Shown here: one piece after another, positions 10,825 through 14,591 of the stretch | How the letters are laid out: the number at the start of each line of letters is the position of its first letter | How positions within the stretch are numbered: position 1 is the first letter of the stretch | DNA from: an uncultured Clostridia bacterium | GTDB lineage: Bacteria > Bacillota > Clostridia > Christensenellales > UBA3700 | Direction of reading: 5' to 3' | DNA length: 64,000 nucleotides | Assembly: GCA_947038565.1 (NCBI GenBank) | Contig: CAMQWP010000001.1 | Coordinates: 130,381 to 194,380, forward strand | The notes under the pieces: generated by a model | What the model was told of the DNA's origin: nothing | What the model saw: the letters and a program-made list of their open reading frames with translations, nothing else | The model's database searches: none | Made by a program: the position numbers and the translations under genes

Positions 10825-11103
10825 TTACTGCTTAATTAGTAATTTTTTGTATCCACCATGACCTTTTTGCACGCACTTAGACACTCTGCTTAACGTTGCC
10901 GACGAAATGCTAGTAGCAGTAATTACTTCCGCATAAGTCTTGCCTTGCATTAATAAGTCAGCAGCTTTAATTCTTTGAGCCATTTGCTCTACTTCTTTAT
11001 AAGTACATAAATCTTCTAATATAAACTTCATGTCCGAGCTATCCTTGACATTTGCAAGTGCTGTATATAACTCATTTAGCATATCTTCACTAGTATGGTG
11101 CAT
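10825..11103 (-). CDS. yerC: YerC/YecD family TrpR-like transcriptional regulator
   Basis: This 92-residue protein is a small all-helical DNA-binding protein of the TrpR/YerC-YecD family. The helix-turn-helix is in the C-terminal half, around KTYAEVITATSISSATLSRVSK, and is preceded by the DLCTYKEVEQMAQRI helix typical of the family. AGGAG lies 9 bases before the ATG. It follows the ABC transporter ATPase gene by only 21 bases, so it probably belongs to that operon. Its target and ligand are unknown; no tryptophan genes are nearby. Confidence 0.88.
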   Translation of the reverse strand: MHHTSEDMLNELYTALANVKDSSDMKFILEDLCTYKEVEQMAQRIKAADLLMQGKTYAEVITATSISSATLSRVSKCVQKGHGGYKKLLIKQ

Positions 11104-12945: not shown

Positions 12946-13773
12946 TTAGTTAAATAATGTTTCTACAAAACGCTCACCAGCAGATCCTTTTTCACAAGCT
13001 ACAGTAGCCTCTTTCCAAGATTCAGTAGTAGAGAATGTTGCAAGGTTTTCTTTTTTAACTATTGCCATTTGAGTGTTTTTAAGGTAAGGTTTAGAAACAG
13101 ATAATGCTTCTTTAATCTCTTCAGTAACAGTCATACCATTCCAGATAACGTCGATTTTACCACTCTTTATTTCAGTAATTTTCTGAGCCCATGTGATCTC
13201 TTGAAACTTTACTTCTACGCCCATTTGAGCAAATACAGCCTTTGCAAGATCTATATCATATCCGATAAGTTGACCCTCGGTGTCTTTGAAAGCTATTGGA
13301 GCAAAGAAAGTTACACCTACTACTACGCCATCAGTAACATATGAATCCCATTCAGCAAGCTCTTCGGCAGTGAATGTTGGTACTTCGTCAACTACTACTG
13401 GAATAGTCTCATTTTGCAAACCGTATTTAGTTGCTATTTCAGTAATCTTGCCGTTCATACCTAACTCTGATAATGCAAAATTTACTTTTTTCTCAAGAAC
13501 ACTGTTTTTATTAAAAGCAATACCATACTCTTCACCTGGCATTTCAATACCCTCTATGATAGAAAGTGAATCTTTGTAGCTTTCATTATTTACTATAGTG
13601 TAATTTCCCATGATAGAGTCAATAACAGCAACGTCTGATCTTCCAGTGTATACCTCTTGCAATGCCATTGCTTGAGTAGTAAGTCCGACATATGGACTAC
13701 AACCTACTAATGTAACTACTGATATTGCTGCAACAGCCATAACGGCTATAATTCCTAAAATTCTTTTTTTCAT
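12946..13773 (-). CDS. Amino-acid ABC transporter binding lipoprotein, apparently circularly permuted (SBP_bac_3 family)
   Basis: The 275-residue lipoprotein has a signal with lipobox LVGC (Cys25). Domain order is reversed. Residues ~32-119 (TTQAMALQEVYTGRSD, VIDSIMGN, EEYGIAFNK, LSELGMNGKITEIATKYG) are what normally forms the C-terminal part of the family. Residues ~149-275 (VVGVTFFAPIAFKD, LIGYDIDLAKAVF, KIDVIWNGMTVTEE, KPYLKNTQMAIV, ending at CEKGSAGERFVETLFN) are what normally forms the N-terminal part. The stop falls where a normal protein would run on into TTQAMALQEV. A linker of about 25 residues joins the old C- and N-termini. All pieces of a full ligand-binding protein are present, so it is probably functional. 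AAGGAG precedes the ATG and a good promoter lies ~100 bases upstream. Confidence 0.85.
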   Translation of the reverse strand: MKKRILGIIAVMAVAAISVVTLVGCSPYVGLTTQAMALQEVYTGRSDVAVIDSIMGNYTIVNNESYKDSLSIIEGIEMPGEEYGIAFNKNSVLEKKVNFALSELGMNGKITEIATKYGLQNETIPVVVDEVPTFTAEELAEWDSYVTDGVVVGVTFFAPIAFKDTEGQLIGYDIDLAKAVFAQMGVEVKFQEITWAQKITEIKSGKIDVIWNGMTVTEEIKEALSVSKPYLKNTQMAIVKKENLATFSTTESWKEATVACEKGSAGERFVETLFN

Positions 13774-13873
13774 TTTTTCTCTCCTTGTTAGTTAGCTACT
13801 AGCTAATTGTTATCAACCTTCTAAGGTCTCTTAACTTATTGCTGTACTGCTAATCTATGTTTGTTATATTTGT

Positions 13874-13998: not shown

Positions 13999-14442
13999 TT
14001 ATGGTATATTTATTGCATGACCTAGGCTGTCTATAGCGACCATTTTGAGTAGTGCTGTATTTATAGGGAATTCTTCTCCTGTAAGTTTTCTTGCATAAGT
14101 GATGATTTCTACCGTAACACTAGTCATACCCTGACTAACAACTCTACCACGCATGATAATAGTATCATTTATATATGCAGGCTCTTCGAACACTAACTCC
14201 TCTACTTTAACGGTTGTTACATCTAAGTGAGTGTAATCTCTCGCAACAACAGCCGATAATATATCTATCCACTCCATAAGTCTACCGCCAAAAAGTCTAC
14301 CTACACCATTAATATCGGTTGCCATGACTATATGAACTTGCTCTATCACATTGCTATTTCTTATTTTTTTAGGAACATGACTTAATTTACTCTTGTCATT
14401 ACCTGCTATATCGTTTAATATATCTCTATCTGTCTTTGTCAT
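13999..14442 (-). CDS. Acyl-CoA thioesterase, hotdog fold (YciA/YkhA family)
   Basis: A 147-residue single hotdog domain. Family features are the NGVGRLFGGRLMEWIDILSAVVARDYTH helix (the Asn and Asp near residues 46-60 form the active site) and the strand pattern VEELVFEEPAYINDTIIMRGRVV. It would hydrolyse acyl-CoA to free acid and CoA in the cytoplasm. The ATG at 14442 sits about 7 bases from AAGGCGGTG; a GTG three codons earlier overlaps that site. It seems to be a single gene between the transporter operon and the ABC-F gene. The physiological substrate is not evident. Confidence 0.88.
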   Translation of the reverse strand: MTKTDRDILNDIAGNDKSKLSHVPKKIRNSNVIEQVHIVMATDINGVGRLFGGRLMEWIDILSAVVARDYTHLDVTTVKVEELVFEEPAYINDTIIMRGRVVSQGMTSVTVEIITYARKLTGEEFPINTALLKMVAIDSLGHAINIP

Positions 14443-14591
14443 AAAAAACACCGCCTTACTTATTACCTTATTCGGTAATATGTAAAACGGTGCAAAAATA
14501 CAAATATTGTGTTATGTTAAAAGTTATAGATAAAGATATATATATATTATAATCATTATTATCTATATATATAGCAAATATACATATAAGA

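Follow-up and report, generated by a model that had tools for sequence, protein, structure and literature searches.

Repeated natural circular permutation of a family-3 solute-binding lipoprotein among related Clostridia

The window, a stretch of 64,000 nucleotides from an uncultured Clostridia bacterium that forms part of a 340 kb contig, contains an operon for a polar-amino-acid-type (PAAT-type) ABC importer on its minus strand. Its solute-binding protein (SBP) gene (12946..13773) encodes a circularly permuted family-3 solute-binding lipoprotein of 275 amino acids, whose cut we refer to as type A. The open reading frame is complete: a Shine-Dalgarno sequence, AAGGAGAG, is seen in the sequence at 13779..13786 (minus strand), a lipoprotein signal peptide with the lipobox LVGC occupies residues 1-25 (13699..13773, minus strand; Cys25), and the stop is normal. 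The same operon encodes a PAAT-type permease (PF00528; 12148..12825, minus strand) and an ABC ATPase (PF00005; 11125..12141, minus strand), the latter with an insert of about 90 amino acids, containing a CxxC motif, between Walker A and the Q-loop. Large variable ATPase inserts also occur in five other operons of our survey (L127, L129, L123, L191 and L063); they lie on one or the other side of the Q-loop, towards Walker A or towards the signature motif, and reach about 300 amino acids in type C relatives. Two further minus-strand genes, each named by resemblance only, served as syntenic markers: a TrpR/YerC-like regulator (10825..11103) and an acyl-CoA thioesterase-like gene (13999..14451). 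In each of the three congeners compared below, the TrpR/YerC-like gene comes immediately after the transporter genes, and it is possible that this neighbour hints at the transporter's ligand. No Rfam families were found within the window.

The two parts of the binding domain stand in reversed order. Behind the signal peptide, residues 28-119 (13417..13692, minus strand) correspond to the C-terminal segment of canonical proteins, which comprises what remains of lobe 2 as well as the final helices of lobe 1, and include the conserved binding residue Asp52. A linker of about 30 residues (120-148; 13330..13416, minus strand), with the helix preceding strand 1 at its end, bridges the old C- and N-termini. 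The chain finishes with the canonical N-terminal segment, which spans lobe 1 and reaches into lobe 2, as residues 149-275 (12949..13329, minus strand). The Pfam family SBP_bac_3 (PF00497) is matched with 102.6 bits against a cut-off of 26.4, in a match confined to residues 156-244. In a phmmer comparison with solved structures, window residues 155-271 align with residues 18-133 of AncQR and residues 36-117 with its residues 151-229, and the order is likewise reversed against 3hv1, 4ohn and 6svf. On a reference profile of 224 positions, made from 64 canonical relatives, the window protein matches positions 123-223 (69.5 bits) and then positions 3-126 (166.7 bits), and both lobes are thus represented by homologous sequence. 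As these two pieces overlap by only 4 residues, the domain is present exactly once, in rotated form. Sequence and comparison show that the window protein is a natural circular permutant: its segments are exchanged, its domain occurs once, and natural homologues with the normal order exist. Membership in the SBP_bac_3 superfamily is met by the criteria of profile, both lobes, and lipid anchor and operon. An earlier note, made from the sequence alone, had claimed that this gene encodes a permuted SBP_bac_3 protein with segments at residues ~32-119 and 149-275, and that its intact signal, operon and motifs argue against decay. These claims held, the first by the two-piece reversed alignment and the profile mapping, and the boundaries to within a few residues.

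An AlphaFold2 model of the window protein, made with 26 permuted relatives as input, has a pLDDT of 92.2 and a pTM of 0.84 and contains the expected elements. When this model was used in sequential structure searches, Foldseek matched only lobe-sized stretches, and for many amino-acid-binding proteins the VIA-align match covered residues 136-275, opposite chain positions 1-137. Such partial-chain matches are the behaviour expected of a permutant, as far as a predicted model without an order-independent superposition can indicate. The fold most likely remains that of a two-lobed Venus flytrap, which is again a prediction of the model, supported neither by a solved structure nor by an order-independent superposition. 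The top VIA match was the Plasmodium protein PfVFT1 (5jkq; model residues 89-275, Z 12.6, 181 aligned residues, rmsd 4.7). This is the longest sequential structural match and begins ahead of the permutation joint; it is conceivable that PfVFT1 has a chain order similar to that of the window protein.

The pocket columns equivalent to GlnH F13, F50, G68, T70 and D157 are equally conserved in canonical and permuted proteins. In the window protein, the F50 equivalent is Trp, and the D157 equivalent is present as Asp52. The equivalent of the carboxylate-binding Arg75 of GlnH is Ile220 in the window protein and Leu in a canonical protein of the same genus, and is variable across the family. Although this Arg is replaced in the canonical congener too, the ligand is maybe no ordinary alpha-amino acid, and in view of Ile220 we do not claim alpha-amino-acid specificity for the window protein. 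Nor do we place it in the Lys/Arg/Orn-binding subfamily TIGR01096, against which it scores 110.6 bits, under the NCBI cut-off of 256.35. The loss of the Arg75 equivalent could further suggest that the permuted protein has become a sensor or regulator of the transporter and is no longer its transport receptor. We regard this as very unlikely, since its gene is the sole SBP gene of the operon and the canonical congener also lacks the Arg at the same position.

The same locus encodes proteins of other topologies in close species. Another genome of the same genus (G002) has the identical gene order of ABC-F, thioesterase-like, SBP, permease, ATPase, TrpR-like and pdxS genes, and its flanks are 63-96% identical to those of the window, but its SBP is canonical. 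The permease next to this canonical protein is 63% identical to the window permease and is its sister in the permease tree (support 100/97), and the two signal peptides are 78% identical over 27 residues. An unpermuted parent in close relatives, for which the earlier note had proposed to search, is thus found in syntenic position. In a third member of the genus (G001), a type C protein is encoded at the matching locus, so that one syntenic locus carries three topologies in three congeners: type A in the window, canonical in G002 and type C in G001. Three more genera contain syntenic orthologous loci of differing topology (types A and canonical in g66 and in g45, types A and B in g43). More than one topology is held by 13 genera, and four genomes encode a pair of permuted proteins with different cuts; orthology is not established for all loci in these two counts.

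It is possible, though less likely, that the gene was not permuted at this locus. In that case, homologous recombination in the permease and signal-peptide flanks would have exchanged the canonical SBP body for one that had been permuted beforehand in another lineage. In favour of this, the SBP body is only 32-44% identical to that of the congener, in comparison with 63-96% for the flanks. Furthermore, at a permease identity of ~0.70-0.75, the mean SBP identity is 0.43 across topologies versus 0.55-0.58 for permuted pairs of the same topology. SBP identity across topologies (35-57%) lies below permease identity, and at individual loci such a replacement remains possible. However, a closer permuted donor was not found, the best relative being a type C protein with 46% identity, and the signal peptide is, as described, close to that of the canonical congener.

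Relatives for a wider survey were drawn from genomes of the same order, from a public genome collection and from the phylum, and were sorted by segment order. As the queries were permuted proteins, topology frequencies are biased. The tree set of 133 non-redundant relatives includes 81 permuted proteins with four cut sites (25 of type C, 23 of type A, 20 of type B and 13 of type H) and 52 canonical ones. On the reference profile, the type C cut lies at position ~20, after strand 1; the type H cut at ~96-110, at the hinge; the type A cut at ~124, after the helix following the GSAGE loop; and the type B cut at ~160-166, after the helix next to the conserved Asp. In most permutants, the new N-terminus carries a lipobox signal. 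Permease and ATPase genes are directly downstream in 21 of 23 type A, 11 of 13 type H, all 25 type C, 18 of 21 type B and 46 of 52 canonical cases. The assignment of type C depends on a moved strand that is short, but well conserved, with 62-64% identity to a canonical relative over 24-25 residues. Close pairs display the swapped order directly: the type H protein L006 matches the canonical L074 in two stretches, one of 112 residues (63% identity) and one of 125 residues (67% identity). The first extends right to the C-terminal end of L074, and a few residues further on the second sets in, at the N-terminal region of mature L074. The type C protein L187 and the type A protein L014 similarly align in swapped order, with 55% and 64% identity. 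One candidate for terminal redundancy, L007, in which profile positions 92-122 seemed to occur twice, was rejected as a chance alignment of its signal peptide; this protein is of type A.

The search of the window's own genome yielded just two family-3 loci, and both encode permuted proteins, with different cut sites. The second, at C1:128616 and outside the window, is of type B: its product is collinear with the type B protein L140 along its whole length (E 6e-28), and its model is of acceptable quality, with a pLDDT of 80.8. Permease and ATPase genes follow this locus (G000:C1:128616-128963, L002/L193). Among other genomes, an operon of G360 (L163) has a divergent canonical SBP gene immediately followed by a permuted one of type A, and an operon of G789 contains two separate canonical family-3 SBP genes in tandem (L203/L213).

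Most genomes surveyed are metagenome-assembled, which could raise the suspicion that the permuted gene is an assembly chimera or a decaying fragment. This explanation is all but excluded. Independent genomes encode proteins that are collinear through the junction at 35-44% identity, which rules out both chance and an assembly artefact. Neither of the outcomes that the earlier note had named as refuting its proposal, a structural model in better agreement with the normal order or long-read evidence for a chimera of two truncated genes, was encountered. Moreover, the termini are conserved, the operon is kept, the contig is long, and dN/dS is well under 1, with values of 0.04-0.23 in twelve permutant pairs that correspond to purifying selection.

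For phylogenetic analysis, the SBP tree was built on proteins rotated back to canonical order. The SBP trees need 11 switches between canonical and permuted topologies, of which well-supported branches force 8 (133 rows) or 9 (145 rows). The permease tree, which is independent of the SBP sequences, needs 16 switches, with 8 forced. A single clade of all permuted proteins is rejected by the AU test (p 8e-72), as is a single clade of all type H proteins (p 4e-50). These results show that the permuted topology arose or switched repeatedly: a single origin is rejected, and supported branches force at least nine switches. The counts give no direction: reversions may be among the switches, and part of the rows sit on long branches. 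The expectation of the earlier note that natural permutants of this fold are rare therefore failed for this lineage, where they are common and recurrent, with several cut points.

Permutation by duplication is a known model, in which a tandem duplication is followed by trimming of both ends (PMC3320104). The precursor form that it demands is found in a related lineage, where two species from a different family of the phylum have a single open reading frame of 528-530 residues. This frame carries two complete canonical domains, which are 80% identical and follow each other across a joint of ~12 residues that lacks a second signal peptide. In the genome examined (G777), this frame shares an operon with a permease and an ATPase. 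The tandem lineage is sister to nine type B permutants (99/91). Single canonical genes also occur in the tandem's own family and in related genera, and the tandem therefore serves to illustrate the route, without evidence that type B descends directly from it. Within the order of the window's species, none of the 203 SBP open reading frames of the first set has the tandem (N-C-N-C) arrangement; tandem copies were found only in the related lineage. Taken with the unpermuted syntenic parent, the tandem-fused form supports the earlier proposal that duplication with trimming of both ends is the simplest origin. Alternatively, the two parts could once have been separate genes that fused in the opposite order. 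The type H cut at the hinge parts the lobes cleanly, which makes separate lobes conceivable. However, we noticed no split-gene pairs across ~200 SBP loci, although we did not search for them directly, and tandem-fused whole domains do exist; we consider fission and fusion, which nothing found here supports, very unlikely.

According to the duplication route, which we prefer, each permutation would have begun with an in-frame tandem duplication of the mature domain, followed by a deletion behind the signal peptide and by truncation of the second copy at the matching point. In the window protein, a linker now joins the old termini, and the new ones lie in lobe 2, behind the helix that comes after the GSAGE loop. 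We read this protein as the lipid-anchored receptor of an ABC importer of the polar-amino-acid type. It most likely hands its ligand to the neighbouring permease, and with respect to canonical proteins only its chain order and lipid anchor point are altered, the anchor being on lobe 2 rather than lobe 1. We consider this explanation as a whole, a permuted receptor of a PAAT-type importer, very likely (probability about 0.9). The duplication route, the transport function, the ligand class and any benefit of the moved anchor are inferred, without experiment.

Natural permutation of binding proteins is already known. TpMglB-2 (Tp0684), a glucose-binding lipoprotein of Treponema pallidum termed 'Type Ic', is a natural circular permutation whose type also occurs in gut Gram-positives and retains ligand binding and closure (PMC4990184). 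Like TpMglB-2, the window protein is a permuted, lipid-anchored ABC substrate-binding protein. However, TpMglB-2 has a type I/cluster B sugar-binding fold with one reported permuted topology, whereas the proteins described here belong to family 3 (type II/cluster F) and have four cut sites, repeated origins and switches within genera. Membership of the window protein in Type Ic is not met, since its profile and PDB sequence matches are to family 3 amino-acid-type proteins. Canonical SBP_bac_3 proteins (AncQR 4zv1, Streptococcus thermophilus 3hv1, S. pneumoniae 4ohn, GlnH and HisJ) share both homologous lobes, the pocket columns and the operon type with the window protein, but have the normal chain order and an anchor on lobe 1. 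Among the best 60 solved structures, none is collinear with the permuted family-3 profile except GlnPQ SBD1-SBD2 (6h30), a canonical tandem that matches across the junction (28-279 versus 129-360), as any tandem would; it consists of two full, unpermuted canonical domains of a permease-fused protein. Saposin/swaposin and DNA methyltransferases are proposed to have been permuted by the same duplication route (PMC3320104), but differ from the present case, where several cut sites recur at orthologous loci of close species. A domain dislocation is reported for OpuAC, but the OpuA paper that we checked does not mention one. In the open-access literature searched, which covers few subscription journals, natural family-3 permutants were not reported, and TpMglB-2 was the sole relevant precedent. 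What thus appears to be new is that an amino-acid-type receptor has been permuted repeatedly, at several sites and even within genera.

A bolder reading is that chain order is evolvable in these Clostridia. A small number of favoured loops, namely those behind strand 1, the GSAGE helix and the Asp helix and the one at the hinge, would be the repeated sites of permutation by way of tandem-fused intermediates, and the reason would be a functional value of presenting the lipid anchor and the termini on another face of the flytrap. On present evidence we lean slightly against this reading. Circular permutation is usually seen as rare and old, and is known from single protein pairs. Here, one family has switched independently many times and been cut at four sites, its orthologues differ in topology within genera, and a tandem form is still alive; with such real pairs, the order, cost and reason of natural permutation become testable. 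In addition, profile and structure searches that depend on chain order detect these transporter receptors merely as fragments. In these relatives, protein topology is evolving unusually fast.
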